Shown piece by piece: positions 1-7,330 of a DNA stretch of 64,000 nt. Below the pieces are notes generated by a model. It was not told the DNA's origin, did not search any database, and saw only the letters and a list, made by a program, of their open reading frames with translations. Source of the stretch: Bacteroidota bacterium (lineage in GTDB: Bacteria; Bacteroidota; Ignavibacteria; Kryptoniales; JAKASW01); assembly GCA_021825585.1 (NCBI GenBank), contig JAKAGT010000019.1:1-64000 (forward strand), read 5' to 3'. The translations under genes were made by a program, and so were the position numbers. How positions within the stretch are numbered: the stretch's first letter is position 1; every line of letters begins with the position of its first letter.

Positions 1-71
1 TGGAGGAATCATCTCTTCGGATCTTAGCGAGACAAAAAATGCGCCAACTCTAAACTAACAAAATATCATGA

Positions 72-392
72 TTACGGCTCAACAAACTTTGTACACAAAA
101 ATGTTTGTTCCCCGACAGACTCCTAGAGAATGTGATAAAATACTCAGTAGCTGTGATGGAATCTCGTGATTTGGTTCTTGATGTTCACCATCTCCCGCCT
201 TATTTAATTCTTAAATGCCCAGTGCGACCCACCCCGGACAACGATGGATTGAATGAGCGCGTGAGATGTTTCAAGAGGACTTTGGTAGAGCATGCCATGA
301 AGCAGCATCAAGGCGATTACAGAAGTGTCTCAGAGGAGCTTTCTGTTTCAAAAACTGAGATTTATAGACTGCTGGGCGCGAAATCACGCTGA
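72..392 (+). pseudogene. Remnant of a sigma-54-dependent (NtrC-type) regulator: end of the AAA+ region plus C-terminal Fis-type HTH
   Basis: Translation ...FPDRLLENVIKYSVAVMESRDLVLDVHHLPPYL...GDYRSVSEELSVSKTEIYRLLGAKSR resembles the (N)VRELENVIKY segment and Fis HTH of bEBPs. The frame is closed by a stop at 69-71, and no AAA+ core lies upstream in the visible 104 nt. Confidence 0.6.
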
Positions 393-543
393 ACCACGGT
401 GTGATCTTATAATATTTTCAACGTAGGCTGTCAATAGAGCGCCTGCCTCACAATAAATTGACGAGCCGGTGAAACAGCGTCACACATTGAACCGGCGTTA
501 GGATTTTGTCATAGCGTTCTTGACGTTGTCTCAGGGTGTTCGC

Positions 544-559
544 TTCCCAGATTTGGGAG
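544..559. promoter_or_regulatory. Inverted repeat TTCCCAGATTTGGGAG, candidate enhancer-binding-protein site 1
   Basis: Palindromic and matches the repeat at 576-591 (shared pattern TTCCCANNTTYGGGAR); 32 bp centre-to-centre spacing. Confidence 0.55.
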
Positions 560-575
560 AGGGAGAGAACATGGT

Positions 576-591
576 TTCCCAAGTTCGGGAA
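576..591. promoter_or_regulatory. Inverted repeat TTCCCAAGTTCGGGAA, candidate enhancer-binding-protein site 2
   Basis: Palindromic, same pattern as 544-559; about 50 bp upstream of the -24/-12-like element. Confidence 0.55.
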
Positions 592-640
592 AATAGTCGG
601 AGAAACCTTCGAACGTAGAGCAGAATCGGCGTTTGCAATC

Positions 641-657
641 AGGCATGACTATTGCAT
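641..657 (+). promoter_or_regulatory. Candidate sigma-54 (-24/-12) promoter AGGCATG-ACTA-TTGCAT
   Basis: GG at 642-643 and GC at 654-655 with exact N10 spacing; TTGCA matches the -12 consensus and AGGCATG matches TGGCACG at 5/7. Confidence 0.6.
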
Positions 658-761
658 TCTTATTCCCTGATGCATACAACTCTGGTTTGAGATCCCAAAC
701 GTTGGATCGGGACAGCAAACGAACTGGAAACAACAAGATCAAAAAGAAGGGAGAAAGTTCC

Positions 762-932
762 ATGAACTCGGAAAAGCACGAAGAAGGTTCCGCACGGAAC
801 GACGCACTTGACGGCATTATCCATGTTCTTGTACCTGCGGATGATTCCTCCGACTTGAGCTTGATGATACCGCCGGGGTGCTGCGTATCCATTAACACCA
901 GCATACCGGCCGCAAGCGATGTATTGAGCTAA
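762..932 (+). CDS. Putative RiPP precursor peptide (56 aa)
   Basis: ATG preceded by AGAAGGGAGAAAG; encodes MNSEKHEEGSARNDALDGIIHVLVPADDSSDLSLMIPPGCCVSINTSIPAASDVLS. Immediately upstream of two radical SAM/SPASM genes, same strand. Confidence 0.6.
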   Translation: MNSEKHEEGSARNDALDGIIHVLVPADDSSDLSLMIPPGCCVSINTSIPAASDVLS

Positions 933-942
933 GGAAAGAAGC

Positions 943-972
943 GGCGAGTGGAGGAACTTATCTCCACTCGCC
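943..972 (+). other. GC-rich stem-loop between precursor ORF and radical SAM gene
   Basis: GGCGAGTGGAG (943-953) / CTCCACTCGCC (962-972), 11-bp perfect stem, 8-nt loop, no following T-tract. Confidence 0.8.
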
Positions 973-1030
973 AGCGCACAAGGGTACATTCTCGCGAGTC
1001 TTGCATGGTGGTGCAGAAAGACATAATGAC

Positions 1031-2347
1031 ATGGGATTCTCAAATTACAATATACTTCTTAAACACGGCGGCAAGAACATAGTATTTAATACAAGAACCA
1101 AGAGTCTCTTAGAAGTCTCCGAAGAAATTTTTGACCTAATTAGAACCAAGGATGTTAACGCTCTGCAGAACCTGAGCGTGAGGAATCTAAACCTCCTAAA
1201 GGAATCGGGCAATGTAGTCAATGATAACATCAACGAGCTGGAATATATCAGAGTGTTACACAATCTTAGGAAGTATGATACAGCGGCCGCAGGCTTAGGA
1301 ATACTATTGACTAAGTCATGTAATTTTGCCTGTACTTACTGTTTTGAACAGGATCGCAAAGGCTCTATGACGCAAGAGTCTTTCGCGCGTCTGTCGATGT
1401 TGTTAAAGAATATGCTGCCTACCCTTCATTCACTTAATATCCGCTGGACTGGCGGTGAACCGTTGTTGATGTGGGAAGAAATAGCAGACATTTCTGATTT
1501 TCTTAGAATGGAATGCGAAAAACGGTCTATAAACTACATCGCTACAATTACCACGAATGGTTATCTCTTGAATGAGAGAATTCTTGAGAAGCTTGTTCTT
1601 CTCGGAATTAAACAACTCCAAATAACTTTGGATGGCCCGAAAGAAATCCACGACAAGCGACGAATGTTGGCGGGAGGAGGACCAACTTTCGACACAATCT
1701 TGCAAGCGATTAATCTTGCCACTTCATACGTTAATGTCAACCTTCGAGTGAATCTTGACGATTACAATATCAATTCTTTCCAGAGTTTGATCGATATTCT
1801 TGACGTGAGTATCTTGAAGAAAGATAAAATAAAGTTGTTCTGCAGACCGGTGGTCGATTGCATTAAAGGTAATTTAGCGTTCGCGGGTGGTGGATTTGCA
1901 AAAGTGGAGGCTGATCTCATGAAAATTGGAAACCGGAAAGGGTTTATGTTTTCTTTCCACCCCAACGCACGGTTTGGTTTGCGATGCCTTTATTACCAAT
2001 GCAACAGCTATTACGTTGATCCGGGATTGAACCTCTTTAAGTGCCCGGAACATCTTAATCATCCGTGGAGAGCTGTTGGAGTGATTGATGAGACGGGCAG
2101 AATAATTATGACCAATCAAACAAATTATTTGGAGTCGATGAGGCAGGATCCGTTCAATTTGGCAGAATGCAGAAATTGCCGCGTATTGCCGTTATGCTAT
2201 GGAAAGTGCGCGCTGTTGTATGAAACTTCAGGGAAGCAGAAAGGGACAGGATGCATTCCAGAAAAGCGCACCCTTGAAGGGAAGATCAGGCAAGCCTTGA
2301 CTTCTCAAGATAGATTGCAAGAGTTCGTCGAAGATATCCAAACATGA
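1031..2347 (+). CDS. Radical SAM/SPASM peptide-maturase-like protein 1
   Basis: CNFACTYCF (CxxxCxxC), WTGGEPLL motif, and C-terminal CRNCRVLPLCYGKC...GC SPASM-type cysteines; alternative TTG start at 1001. Confidence 0.85.
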   Translation: MGFSNYNILLKHGGKNIVFNTRTKSLLEVSEEIFDLIRTKDVNALQNLSVRNLNLLKESGNVVNDNINELEYIRVLHNLRKYDTAAAGLGILLTKSCNFACTYCFEQDRKGSMTQESFARLSMLLKNMLPTLHSLNIRWTGGEPLLMWEEIADISDFLRMECEKRSINYIATITTNGYLLNERILEKLVLLGIKQLQITLDGPKEIHDKRRMLAGGGPTFDTILQAINLATSYVNVNLRVNLDDYNINSFQSLIDILDVSILKKDKIKLFCRPVVDCIKGNLAFAGGGFAKVEADLMKIGNRKGFMFSFHPNARFGLRCLYYQCNSYYVDPGLNLFKCPEHLNHPWRAVGVIDETGRIIMTNQTNYLESMRQDPFNLAECRNCRVLPLCYGKCALLYETSGKQKGTGCIPEKRTLEGKIRQALTSQDRLQEFVEDIQT

Positions 2348-2383
2348 GAACATTTGAAGGGGCGAGACCAATTCTATTGTGAT

Positions 2384-3799
2384 ATGAGTGCAAATAGGCT
2401 TAAGCAATCCCGCTATAATCTGATAGTTCAATTGGAAGCAGGTGATGCGCTTGTTTACAACAGCTTGAGAGGGAGTCTGGTGTATGTAGGCCAAAACTTA
2501 CGACCTGCGCTCGCGGAAATACTAGACAGCCCTAGTGATGACCCGCCACAGGCAGAGGCTCCCATGTTGCGAGAAAAACTCATTCAGAATGGATTTATTG
2601 TTCCGCTGTCGTTTGATGAAGTAATGTACCTCAGAGGAAGGAATAAGATCGCTCGGTATTCCAATAAGGTACTTGATTTGGTGATAGCTCTTACCTATGA
2701 TTGCAACTTTTGCTGCCCTTATTGTTGCGAGACCTTAAGGAAGGTTTACATGTCTAGAGAGGTTTCGGACAGAATCATTTCACTAGTGAGTCGTAAAATT
2801 ACATCAGAGGGGGTGCGCCACATCGACTTAGAATGGTACGGAGGTGAACCGCTCTTGTGTAAAGACACAATTCGATATATGTCCCGTAAAATTCTCGGTG
2901 AATGCACGAAGCATAATGTCGAGTACAGTGCGCAGCTCTGTACCAACGGATACGAGATGGACACGCACTTTATCTCAGAATTGGGGCAGCTTGGTATCTC
3001 ATCTATTCATGTAACACTAGATGGCCCTAAGGAATTTCACGATAGAAAAAGATACCTAAAGGGAAAAGTTCCGAGTTACGACGTCATATTAAAAAATCTC
3101 AAAGAGGTGACAGCCCGGTGGCAGGACAAAATCAGGATTTTTGTCAGGATAAATATCGACAGAAATAACGTTAGGTCTTTCCATCCGTTTCTAGAGGAAA
3201 TGAAACGATTCTCAAGGCAGATAAGGATTTACTTTCGACCAGTTTCATCAACTAGTGGCCGAGGGAAGTGCTATTCATCCCAATGCCTTGGCGCGAACGA
3301 ATTTGAAAAGGAGTCTGAAGATTTTTATGACACTCTGTTTAACGAGGGTTTCAGCGGAGGTAAGTTGCCTAAACCATCTTTTTTATCGTGCGGTGGCGAC
3401 CTCCTAAATTCTTTCTCAATTGACCCTGAGGGCACGGTGTACAAGTGCATCTATGGTGTGACGGCTAATGAGGGGACTGTTAAACCCTTAGGTACACTCA
3501 CTGAGATGGGAACAATTAAGTATGATACGGCTGAACTCGTTAAGTGGGCTTCCTGGGACGCACTGGATAATGCGGTCTGCGCAGAATGCAAGTACCTGCC
3601 CCTATGTTTGGGAGGGTGCCCAATATTTGGATGGCCTGCAGATTCTGATAATCAGCAGGCTCAAGTAATTCCGTGCAAGGAAATAGCTAAGCCGGGTCTC
3701 CTTGACGCGCTGATTACCTCTTACTGGAAAAAATACGGAAGCGCAACGTCTGATTCCTCTGGATCAAGCCGTGGTGCCACCCCACCTTCTCGGGGGTAA
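2384..3799 (+). CDS. Radical SAM/SPASM peptide-maturase-like protein 2
   Basis: CNFCCPYCC (CxxxCxxC), WYGGEPLL, DPEGTVYKCIYG, CAECKYLPLCLGGCP; alternative upstream start at 2354. Confidence 0.85.
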   Translation: MSANRLKQSRYNLIVQLEAGDALVYNSLRGSLVYVGQNLRPALAEILDSPSDDPPQAEAPMLREKLIQNGFIVPLSFDEVMYLRGRNKIARYSNKVLDLVIALTYDCNFCCPYCCETLRKVYMSREVSDRIISLVSRKITSEGVRHIDLEWYGGEPLLCKDTIRYMSRKILGECTKHNVEYSAQLCTNGYEMDTHFISELGQLGISSIHVTLDGPKEFHDRKRYLKGKVPSYDVILKNLKEVTARWQDKIRIFVRINIDRNNVRSFHPFLEEMKRFSRQIRIYFRPVSSTSGRGKCYSSQCLGANEFEKESEDFYDTLFNEGFSGGKLPKPSFLSCGGDLLNSFSIDPEGTVYKCIYGVTANEGTVKPLGTLTEMGTIKYDTAELVKWASWDALDNAVCAECKYLPLCLGGCPIFGWPADSDNQQAQVIPCKEIAKPGLLDALITSYWKKYGSATSDSSGSSRGATPPSRG

Positions 3800-3801
3800 C
3801 T

Positions 3802-6561
3802 GTGAGTTATCGCAAGCTTAACCGCTACATCGCTTTGGGACTTTTCGCAGTTACTCTGTTTATGTATCGGATGACCGCTCAGTCATCTGTTGCATTCTGG
3901 GATTGCGGTGAATATGCCGCAACCGCTCCCGCACTTGAGGTGCCGCATCCACCGGGTGCACCGCTCTTTACCCTTATCGGAAGAATTGCCATGATGACGC
4001 CTTACGTTCATGATCCTGCTCTCCGTTACAATCTCGTTTCCGGTCTGGCGAGCGCTCTGGCAGTAATGTTGCTGTACCTCATCGGGGTACGGGTCATCTC
4101 ACGATGGAAAGGCTTTCCCGCCAACGTTCGTGGCTCCATAATAGTGTTTGGCTCTGCGGCAATTGGCGCTTTGACATTGTCCGTAAGCGATACATTCTGG
4201 TTTAACGCGGTTGAATCAGGCTTGTTTGCATCCAGCATTTTCTTCGTCTCATTTGTCATCTGGCTCGGCGTGGTCTGGTTTGAAAAGGCGGACGAGCCAG
4301 GGAGTCAGAAATATCTACTCCTGGCTTCATACGTGATGGGTCTTTCCATCGGGATACACCAGTTGAGCCTGTTGGCTTTCTTCACCATCGCGTTGCTGAT
4401 CTACTTCAAATACTACGAGTTCGAGTGGAAAACATTTTTCAGGTTCGCAATAATTACCGCTCTTGCTTTCATGATTGTTTACCCCGGTATCGTAAAGTGG
4501 ATCGCCGCTATACTCAATGGCGACCTGAAGTTCGGGCCATTCGACGTAACTCACAGCCCTATAATTGAACTTGTCCCCCCGGCAATCGTGATCGCCGCAA
4601 TCTATGGAGTGTTCAAAGCGGAAAAGGCAAAAAGATGGATCACTGCCACCTCTCTTATGGCGGGCCTCCTCATAATCCTCGGATACTCCACTTATACTTT
4701 GATCTACATCCGCGCCAATGCTCACCCACCAATCAACGAAGACAACCCAAGCAGCCTCAAGAGCCTGGTAGGATATTTGAACCGGGACCAATATGGTTCG
4801 CAGCCGATCTTCTGGCCGCGAAGGTGGAGCACTGAACCGCAGTACCAGGCCAACTACGCAAAATATTCTTCGGACTTTTCGTACTTCATTGGGTATCAAC
4901 TCGATCACATGTTCCTTCGATACCTTGGTTGGAACTTCATTGGAAGGGCCGGCGACATTCAGGATGCGCCCGTCGCCCTTTTCACGGCTCCTAGAGGATG
5001 GTACAACGGCAGGACCGGGTTCCCGACAAGATACTACGCTATTCCTTTCCTCCTGGCATTGTTCGGGATATGGTACCAGTTTAAGAATGACTGGAAGTTT
5101 GGCGTTGCTTTCCTGACAATGTTTATTATTATGGGATTCGCTCTCGTAGTTTACTTCAACATGGCCGATCCACAGCCGAGGGAGCGTGACTACTTTTTTG
5201 TCGGCGCATTCTTCGTGTTCGCGATGTGGGTAGGAGTGGCCGCCTCAGGCGTGATGGACTATGTCTCATCGAAACTCAAAGAGGGCAAATACAAATCCCT
5301 TCTTATTGGCGGAACCGCCCTCGCTCTATTTGTGGTTGCACCGCTGAACATGTTCAACCAGAACCTGTACAGCCATGATAGACACGGCAACTTTGCACCG
5401 TGGGATTATTCGTACAACATCCTGCAGTCTTGCAAACCAAACGCTATACTATTCACAAACGGCGATAACGATACTTTCCCGTTGTGGTATCTGCAAGAGG
5501 CTATGGGGATCCGAACCGATGTACGCATCGTCAACCTCAGCCTGGCAAACACGGACTGGTACATACTTCAGTTGAAGAACGAGACCCCGCATGGTGCGAT
5601 GAAGGTGCCGATCAGCCTGACCGACCAGGAGACAAGAGATATCCAGCCGATAGAATGGCACGCACGAACATTCAAGCTGCCGGTTCCCAAAGAGGTATAC
5701 AAAGAGTTTGGAGTCACTGATACCAGCATCACGAATAAGGGCTATATCGAATATACCGTAAACCCGACCTTGCAGGCCGGCAATGTGCAGGCGATCAGAG
5801 CGCAGGACATTCTGATGCAGAACATCATTCAGACAAACGACTGGAGGCGCCCGATTTTTTACGCGGTAACCGTGGCGCCAGACAATTTCATAGGGGTGAC
5901 CCCGTATCTCCAAATGCAAGGCCTTGCGCTTCAATTAACACCCTTTGAGAATACGAATCCCGGCGAGGACTATAGAATAGACGAGCCAATCATGAGGGAA
6001 TGTCTTCTCCATCAGCCTCGGACCTTTCACCGTCATGCGCACTACGGATTCTTCTTCACAAATCTGAGCAATCCAAATATCTACTATGATGACAATGTCA
6101 GAAGGTTGATCACGGATTATAACTACAGCTTTGTTCAACTGGCATCATATTATGAGATGCAGGGTGACAGCGCTGCAGCCATTGCCACGCTCGACACCAT
6201 GGAAACTCGCATTCCAATCAGTGCCTTTCCGATGGACTACAAGATCATGAGCGATGTCGCCAGGATGTACTACATGGCCGGGGATACAGCCCAATTTCAT
6301 AAATATGCAATCGTGGTTGAGCAGAATGCCCTTCAGTCTATCCAGGAGAACCCTGACGACGTGCAGAGTTACTATAACCCCTATAGAATACTCTTGGATA
6401 TTTACGACATGGACAAGGATTATCAAAAGTCCATTGAGTTGCTTGAAAAATTGCAGGCGATGTTCCCGAATGACAAAGGAATTTCCCAGAGGATTGCAGA
6501 ACTCCAGATAATCCTTCGCGGAAATCCGCCGCTGTCCGGCACCGCGGTCGGTCATCGCTAA
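3802..6561 (+). CDS. DUF2723-family multi-pass membrane protein (protein O-mannosyltransferase-like) with C-terminal TPR-like region
   Basis: N-terminal YIALGLFAVTLFMYRMTAQSSVAFWDCGEYAATAPALEVPHPPGAPLFTLIGR is characteristic; GTG start 2 nt after the previous stop. Confidence 0.8.
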   Translation: MSYRKLNRYIALGLFAVTLFMYRMTAQSSVAFWDCGEYAATAPALEVPHPPGAPLFTLIGRIAMMTPYVHDPALRYNLVSGLASALAVMLLYLIGVRVISRWKGFPANVRGSIIVFGSAAIGALTLSVSDTFWFNAVESGLFASSIFFVSFVIWLGVVWFEKADEPGSQKYLLLASYVMGLSIGIHQLSLLAFFTIALLIYFKYYEFEWKTFFRFAIITALAFMIVYPGIVKWIAAILNGDLKFGPFDVTHSPIIELVPPAIVIAAIYGVFKAEKAKRWITATSLMAGLLIILGYSTYTLIYIRANAHPPINEDNPSSLKSLVGYLNRDQYGSQPIFWPRRWSTEPQYQANYAKYSSDFSYFIGYQLDHMFLRYLGWNFIGRAGDIQDAPVALFTAPRGWYNGRTGFPTRYYAIPFLLALFGIWYQFKNDWKFGVAFLTMFIIMGFALVVYFNMADPQPRERDYFFVGAFFVFAMWVGVAASGVMDYVSSKLKEGKYKSLLIGGTALALFVVAPLNMFNQNLYSHDRHGNFAPWDYSYNILQSCKPNAILFTNGDNDTFPLWYLQEAMGIRTDVRIVNLSLANTDWYILQLKNETPHGAMKVPISLTDQETRDIQPIEWHARTFKLPVPKEVYKEFGVTDTSITNKGYIEYTVNPTLQAGNVQAIRAQDILMQNIIQTNDWRRPIFYAVTVAPDNFIGVTPYLQMQGLALQLTPFENTNPGEDYRIDEPIMRECLLHQPRTFHRHAHYGFFFTNLSNPNIYYDDNVRRLITDYNYSFVQLASYYEMQGDSAAAIATLDTMETRIPISAFPMDYKIMSDVARMYYMAGDTAQFHKYAIVVEQNALQSIQENPDDVQSYYNPYRILLDIYDMDKDYQKSIELLEKLQAMFPNDKGISQRIAELQIILRGNPPLSGTAVGHR

Positions 6562-6958
6562 AGGTAATAGAATTGTTATATCGCGTTAATTCACCATCTT
6601 CTCCTGGTCCTCTGCGGCGCTTTTATGGTCTGACTCGATTTGCTACCACACCTTATCCCAGTATCTTGGCAACTCAATTCTTTCAGCAGACACATTGCGC
6701 CTCTTTGATGTTGTAGCCCTTTAGGCTGTTCCAATTCGCGTTAGCAATCCCTGGGGAATTATTATGGCCCTATGTCAGCCTAACTTCGGGGTTTATTCTG
6801 GCACGAAGATACTGCTCAGATTTGATTATTTCATCGCTGTGTGCAAAGTTTCAGGTGCCCGGAATCGGACGGTGGCGTTCGAAAATGAACGGCAGCAATG
6901 TTCAACTACCATTAATCAATGATCGGTGAAAATCAAATGCAGCAAGGGAGCAGGGAAA

Positions 6959-7330
6959 ATGGAAAAGAAAAATGTTATTCAAGACAAATCTTTCGAGTTT
7001 GCAGTTCAGATTGTGGAGAGCTACCAATTTCTGGCGGCTACCAAGAGGGAATTTGTACTGTCTAAGCAATTATTGAGAAGCGGCACATCTATCGGAGCAA
7101 ACGTCTCGGAAGCGGAAGGAGCTATTTCTAAGGCGGATTTCTCAAACAAGATATCAATTGCTTACAAGGAATGCCTTGAGACGAAATACTGGATCAAACT
7201 TCTCAACCGCACGGGATTCCTTGACAAAAAAGATCACTCGAAGCTCTACCCCGACGCTGACGAGATTGGCAAAATCCTATTTGCGATATTGAGGACTACA
7301 AGAATCAAACCAAGCCACAATGACCAATGA
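6959..7330 (+). CDS. Four-helix bundle protein (23S rRNA intervening-sequence protein family)
   Basis: SFEFAVQIVESYQFL...LSKQLLRSGTSIGANVSEAEGAISKADFSNKISIAYKECLETKYWIKLL. Confidence 0.9.
   Translation: MEKKNVIQDKSFEFAVQIVESYQFLAATKREFVLSKQLLRSGTSIGANVSEAEGAISKADFSNKISIAYKECLETKYWIKLLNRTGFLDKKDHSKLYPDADEIGKILFAILRTTRIKPSHNDQ

Follow-up and report, generated by a model that had tools for sequence, protein, structure and literature searches.

A candidate radical SAM RiPP locus encoding two RRE-bearing maturases behind a sigma-54-type promoter in a Kryptoniota genome

Results

Organization of the locus

The window, i.e., the whole stretch of 64,000 nucleotides analyzed here, covers the initial 64 kb of a contig of 110 kb; the 5-Mb genome is most likely that of a member of the Kryptoniota. 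The contig begins 761 bp before an ORF for a putative precursor peptide of 56 aa (762..932, + strand), which starts with ATG and is preceded by a ribosome-binding site, AAGGGAG (747..753, +), found by reading the sequence eight bases 5' of ATG 762. After a gap of 98 bp the gene for the radical SAM protein rSAM A follows on the same strand (1031..2347, +) and, 36 bp further downstream, the gene for rSAM B (2384..3799, +; alternative start TTG 2354). Domain, family, structure and tree evidence assigned both proteins as peptide maturases consisting of an RRE, a radical SAM and a SPASM domain. An earlier note on this DNA had described a 56-aa ORF with its ribosome-binding site just upstream of two adjacent rSAM genes on the same strand; this arrangement was recovered, with a peptide sequence exactly as stated.

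Codon usage was determined for the 56-aa ORF, the coding status of which the note had left to be checked. The ORF reached 0.17 bits/codon in frame; pieces of neighbouring genes of the same length gave 0.29 ± 0.14 bits/codon in the true frame versus -0.58 ± 0.25 bits/codon in wrong frames, and none of the wrong-frame stretches attained 0.17 bits/codon. Codon usage and the position behind the promoter described below both support a coding ORF, and a distant genome provides a positional counterpart (see below). Inspection of the sequence between the promoter and rSAM A singles it out as the ORF that has both an ATG and a Shine-Dalgarno sequence, flanked by a sigma-54-type promoter on its 5' side and a strong hairpin on its 3' side. 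A short, coding-like precursor ORF is hence present next to RRE-rSAM/SPASM genes within one sigma-54-type unit. The note had also stated that the peptide is hidden in a 99-aa ORF. This frame is real, but it begins at TTG 633, upstream of the -24/-12 promoter element at 641-656, so that use of the complete frame from this promoter is unlikely; ATG 762 is thus the likely translation start.

We propose that residues 1 to about 35, including the strand GIIHVLV, form the leader and that PPGCCVSINTSIPAASDVLS, carrying Cys-Cys, forms the core. The proposed core contains two cysteines and is devoid of Trp, Tyr and Lys; its Cys-Cys motif lies in a PG context near the C-terminus, like in known precursors. 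With an E cutoff of 10, a search of the 13 family genomes returned nothing but noise besides the peptide itself, and no sequence homolog was found in any set searched, family genomes, viral contigs and TIGR04229 included.

Control region

Two TTTCC-N8-GGAAA-like palindromes, CTTCCCAGATTTGGGAGA (543..560) and TTTCCCAAGTTCGGGAAA (575..592), are located upstream of the peptide ORF as putative activator sites, 32 bp apart as in single-rSAM clusters of the genus. About 65 bp past the second palindrome, a sigma-54-type -24/-12 promoter, AGGCATGACTATTGCA (641..656, +), was detected with a score of 18.7 of 19.7, which was equalled by 2 of 500 shuffles; its spacing is that of the sister clusters. Judged from sequence, the 56-aa ORF opens a sigma-54-type transcription unit. 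Between the peptide ORF and rSAM A, a stem-loop without T run (941..975, +; -25.1 kcal/mol, z -5.4) may serve as an mRNA-processing or attenuation element. Rfam families were not found within 1-4500.

Further upstream, the window contains the C-terminal remnant of a sigma-54 activator gene (105..392, +; 95 codons) with a Fis-type HTH. It was recognized by its similarity to the activator preceding a cluster on contig C31 of the same genome (C-terminus of L039 10462-11577; 37% identity over 91 aa, E 4e-19), the AAA+ domain of which is Sigma54_activat. The AAA+ part of the remnant is missing in the assembled sequence: the upstream frame is shut by TAA at 54-56, and the contig begins at base 1. 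We infer that the palindromes bind an activator of this family.

Enzymes A and B

The adjacent enzymes A and B are 27-29% identical to each other. The earlier note had ascribed a CxxxCxxC motif and C-terminal SPASM cysteines to each of them, and all of these residues are present. The radical SAM motif (PF04055) reads CNFACTYC in A (C97/C101/C104) and CNFCCPYC in B (C107/C111/C114). Seven of seven SPASM cysteines were located in A (319, 338, 380, 383, 389, 393, 408) as well as in B (336, 355, 399, 402, 408, 412, 431), in columns that are near-invariant in an alignment of 46 sequences; B additionally matches TIGR04085. The closest NCBIfam relatives of both enzymes are all Cys-peptide maturases, each scoring far below its curated cutoff (525-600 bits): the best match was CefB for A (233 bits, cutoff 600) and the Clo7bot maturase for B (265 bits, cutoff 600), and the best TIGR04463 score was 252 bits with a cutoff of 525.

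AlphaFold2 models were obtained with a mean pLDDT of 90 for A and 87 for B. At both N-termini, strands followed by three helices were predicted, corresponding to the beta3-alpha3 topology of an RRE, with a pLDDT of about 93-97 in A and mostly 79-97 in B, where one block has 68. The N-terminal RRE also gave a profile match to TigE starting at residue 6. In Foldseek searches, CteB was the top match of both enzymes over the full length (A, 5wgg, E 2e-18; B, 5why, E 9e-18), followed by TigE and a sulfatase maturase; SuiB, ChlB and EpeE were structural neighbours as well. Both enzymes are therefore predicted, on the basis of these models, to carry canonical N-terminal RRE domains; the note had named these N-termini as the place to look for an RRE, and the prediction there is of high confidence, with full-length structural matches to CteB and TigE.

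Neighbourhood and distribution in the genus

Neither a protease nor an exporter adjoins the locus, which has one precursor peptide and no transporter beside it on a contig that starts 761 bp before that peptide; the neighbouring genes agree in this with the earlier observation that a dedicated protease or ABC exporter is not adjacent. A C39 peptidase was not found in the genome. The gene after B (3802-6561) encodes a TMEM260-like/DUF2723 protein and was rejected as a cluster member, as homologs occur throughout the genus without the A/B pair: they were present in 12 of 12 other genomes, the pair in 0 of 12. A small ORF at 6926-7330 resembles a four-helix-bundle protein of the 23S rRNA intervening-sequence type.

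From position 4280 on, the window is 97.7% identical to G402, the closest genome, which lacks the A/B pair. The match stops inside the DUF2723 gene (window 4280 / L088 4166), beside a MacB-type permease; a deletion, an insertion or an assembly break are candidate causes. The GC content is 42% for A and 46% for B versus 51% window-wide, which suggests that both genes were acquired from elsewhere.

A second tandem pair

An alignment that combined A and B with the enzymes of the genus served as query in a scan of 84,980 genomes for relatives. Among the best 80 matches, a locus from a distant 'Bacteroidota bacterium' MAG (L120) stood out alone. On one strand, a LytTR regulator gene comes first, followed by the ORF of a 58-aa peptide (MKKERKKSEISEEIIIVKKGLALLKGGDEGGGTTPPPIKKPGCACIPPAIATYCDNAS) and a hairpin, and then, in this order, by genes for an A-like rSAM, a B-like rSAM, an alpha/beta hydrolase, an ABC exporter with C39 peptidase and HlyD. 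A homologous tandem pair, as the note had advised looking for, thus exists elsewhere, immediately preceded by a Cys peptide and followed by a C39-ABC/HlyD exporter. The A-like enzyme is 34% identical to A (268 bits) and the B-like enzyme 29% identical to B (176 bits). In the tree, A and its counterpart formed one clade on a long branch with 100% SH-aLRT support; B and its counterpart were weakly joined at 87, together with one Mycoplasmatota protein (L122). The hairpin between peptide and A occurs in both loci (z -5.4 in the window, -4.3 in L120).

The two peptides share their position, nearly their length (56 and 58 aa), a hydrophobic leader stretch and a PGC located 18-19 residues from the end. 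Their sequence similarity is not significant: 169 of 5000 shuffle pairs likewise had a 3-mer in common at an equal distance from the C-terminus, so that the precursors could not be shown to be homologous. Conservation of the Cys-Cys core, for which the note had suggested a precursor alignment, was not shown either: L120 has PGCAC instead of CC.

Further A-type proteins were absent (0) from four sets of 391-395 genomes covering the phylum, the class of the window, and the order and the class of L120. Together with L120 being the sole match to stand out from the 80 best of the larger scan, this indicates that the two-rSAM system is rare within the genomes searched, the pair being found in only two of them. 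A scan of genome contigs with A alone as query returned no relatives; it was the alignment query that succeeded. Viral contigs, queried with the A profile and the peptide, yielded distant rSAMs only and no peptide, and plasmids only rSAMs at 25-35% identity. Bacteroidota relatives of A (f26, L003-L026) were rejected as orthologs since they fall outside the A clade in the tree; some have peptides nearby that appear nif11-like on visual inspection. Likewise, G580 and other order-level matches (157-202 bits) were not counted as A-type because their scores do not distinguish A from B and they lack an adjacent tandem partner. In an Aminicenantes MAG (L110 2900-6382), two related peptide-rSAM modules (MDYLVEPMDFF..., MEYIIEPTDFL...) lie in tandem, which represents a whole-module duplication.

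A control signature shared in genus and genome

A cluster consisting of a sigma-54 activator, an rSAM and then a 32-35-aa peptide was observed genus-wide (L039, L056, L057, L058, L060, L061, L069). The peptide is conserved, MK(I/V)(I/V)VxPKV...PGxNCxxCNxxxCxxD. One such cluster is located on contig C31 of the same genome (L039 8608-10118, - strand), where a MacB/FtsX ABC transporter closely precedes the activator; the cluster encodes a clear 35-aa Cys peptide and its own adjacent maturase, 28-29% identical to A and B. As far as searched, these Kryptoniota single-rSAM clusters are undescribed.

In six single-rSAM clusters of the genus (L039, L056, L057, L060, L061, L062), two TTTCC-N8-GGAAA-like palindromes, 31-32 bp apart, were found upstream of the rSAM, with a sigma-54-type promoter 62-65 bp past the palindromes and about 50 bp before the rSAM; the -12 part is degenerate in some, L039, L057 and L061 included. 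The palindromes come after the sigma-54 activator gene wherever the fetched sequence includes one. The window shares this layout, but has the 56-aa gene first instead of the rSAM. Paired palindromes, promoter spacing, activator family and maturase superfamily thus connect the single-rSAM clusters (L039, L056-L058, L060, L061, L069) with the window, whereas their peptide differs in its length of 32-35 aa, its position downstream of one rSAM and its three spaced cysteines.

The 5-Mb genome was scanned for the paired palindrome, allowing two mismatches and using the reversed pattern as control. Four sites were obtained and none in the control: the window locus, the C31 cluster, a cluster on contig C4 and a lipoprotein-like gene on contig C26, so that three of the four precede rSAM peptide-maturase clusters. 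The C4 cluster (L248 612-11930) harbors a SCIFF/PapB-like rSAM maturase behind the paired palindrome, two isolated-SPASM proteins, one of which also matches signal peptidase I, a LuxR-type regulator and a TonB receptor. Similar lipoprotein-like genes preceded by paired palindromes were observed at L249 9412-11044 and L255 7575 onward; the genes of this kind behind palindromes carry the motif M(D/H)KH..LQRL...SC(R/K)SSPTGPHV. The putative regulon would therefore be wider than the peptide clusters.

Discussion

The locus is probably a small, enhancer-controlled rSAM-RiPP operon in which two RRE-rSAM maturases jointly cross-link a Cys-Cys peptide. The L120 pair, the predicted RREs and the coding-like peptide lend support to the claim of the earlier note that an undescribed rSAM-RiPP locus is present here; it may fairly be called unannotated and undescribed. 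In such an operon, an enhancer-binding protein on the palindromes would switch transcription on, and the hairpin would keep the peptide mRNA in excess over the enzyme mRNA. The leader strand around GIIHVLV may dock on the RRE of A and/or B, upon which both enzymes, probably as a complex like TrnC/TrnD, would act together on the core PPGCCVSINTSIPAASDVLS. Each Cys thiol would be joined to a carbon of a downstream residue in a sacti- or ranthi-type thioether, for a total shift of -4 Da; enzymes encoded elsewhere would then remove the leader and carry out the export.

A and B might instead modify a substrate encoded elsewhere, e.g., the 35-aa C31 peptide in trans, the 56-aa ORF being unrelated or a regulatory leader peptide. 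The attenuator-like hairpin directly 3' of the ORF would fit, as would the missing sequence conservation of the 56-aa peptide and the clear Cys peptide at C31 in the same genome. We regard this as decidedly unlikely, as the orthologous L120 pair is accompanied by a Cys peptide that corresponds in position and almost in length, the C31 peptide has a maturase of its own that is just 28-29% identical to A/B, and the ORF itself holds Cys-Cys next to PG and close to the C-terminal end, as known precursors do. That we are looking at horizontally acquired low-GC genes in decay or already inactive appears improbable: peptide, A and B have uninterrupted frames in which no catalytic residue is missing, the promoter and the two palindromes are in place, and the intact activator of the same family at C31 could act in trans, all of which has to be set against the truncated activator gene, the lack of an adjacent exporter and of a C39 peptidase in the genome, the low GC content of A and B and the nearly identical G402 flank without the region.

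The chemistry and the division of labor allow for further variants of the operon. Membership in the rSAM/SPASM group leaves the chemistry unfixed, and with SuiB, ChlB and EpeE among the structural neighbours, A and B could be epimerases or could form C-C or ether links rather than thioethers; CteB as the best structural match, the mostly Cys-containing substrates beside the closest collected relatives and a core without Trp, Tyr and Lys make this unlikely on balance. A sub-case of the joint action favored above, in which one enzyme is catalytic on the peptide and the other a structural or leader-delivery partner, deserves serious consideration, even if we do not favor it. In thuricin CD, TrnC and TrnD form a complex acting jointly, and only the rSAM activity of TrnC is essential, though both cleave SAM; TrnD has a non-canonical RRE and was reported as the structural or leader-delivery partner (PMC12093266). 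The presence of only two cysteines in the core would agree with one catalyst. A and B, however, both keep CxxxCxxC, the seven SPASM cysteines and a predicted RRE that is canonical, unlike that of TrnD.

A wider reading, which we advance tentatively and would not yet call probable, is that a regulon under a sigma-54 enhancer-binding protein jointly controls several Kryptoniota rSAM-RiPP clusters, and that the window locus founds a two-maturase RiPP family with RRE-rSAM enzymes obligately cooperating on one Cys-Cys peptide. The shared signature suggests a common cue for making these peptides, and the paired palindromes with their sigma-54 promoter provide a searchable marker for rSAM peptide clusters of the genus that is independent of the peptide sequence. 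In a full-text search joining RiPP, sigma-54 and radical SAM, the only match appears to concern Aneurinibacillus genome mining. The L120 ortholog with its exporter offers a second independent test bed.

Comparison with known systems

CteB (PDB 5WGG/5WHY) resembles A and B in combining RRE, rSAM and SPASM at 18-20% identity, and acts alone on a six-Cys SCIFF peptide. The CefB, TIGR04463 and Clo7bot Cys-peptide maturases are the best full-length NCBIfam relatives of A/B; their precursors differ. In the geopeptides of Geobacteraceae (TIGR04229/TIGR04280), a short peptide is likewise encoded directly upstream of an RRE-rSAM-SPASM gene, with a hydrophobic leader strand and then a Cys-Cys core (e.g., L171, L175, L149, L140), but one maturase is present instead of two. 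The window peptide did not match TIGR04229 at E 1 and scored 1.0 bit with an HMM of nine geopeptide-like peptides, where 98 of 2000 shuffles were as good; A (170.8 bits) and B (171.5 bits) missed the TIGR04280 cutoff of 400 bits. Because it failed the geopeptide model, the window peptide was not filed as a geopeptide.

Two-rSAM RiPP loci (thuricin CD, thuricin Z, ruminococcin C) and CC-core geopeptides before a related rSAM are already known, and a "new class" would therefore be a stronger term than the evidence allows. The sactipeptides thuricin CD and thuricin Z share with the window two non-identical RRE-bearing rSAM/SPASM enzymes per cluster; in the window both RREs are predicted to be canonical, and the phylum is a different one. 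Thuricin CD has two precursors and an adjacent ABC transporter, whereas the window has one precursor and no adjacent transporter. As a minimal system that pairs a single short peptide with two RRE-bearing rSAM enzymes, the locus bears on the question raised by thuricin CD, namely why some RiPPs need two maturases.
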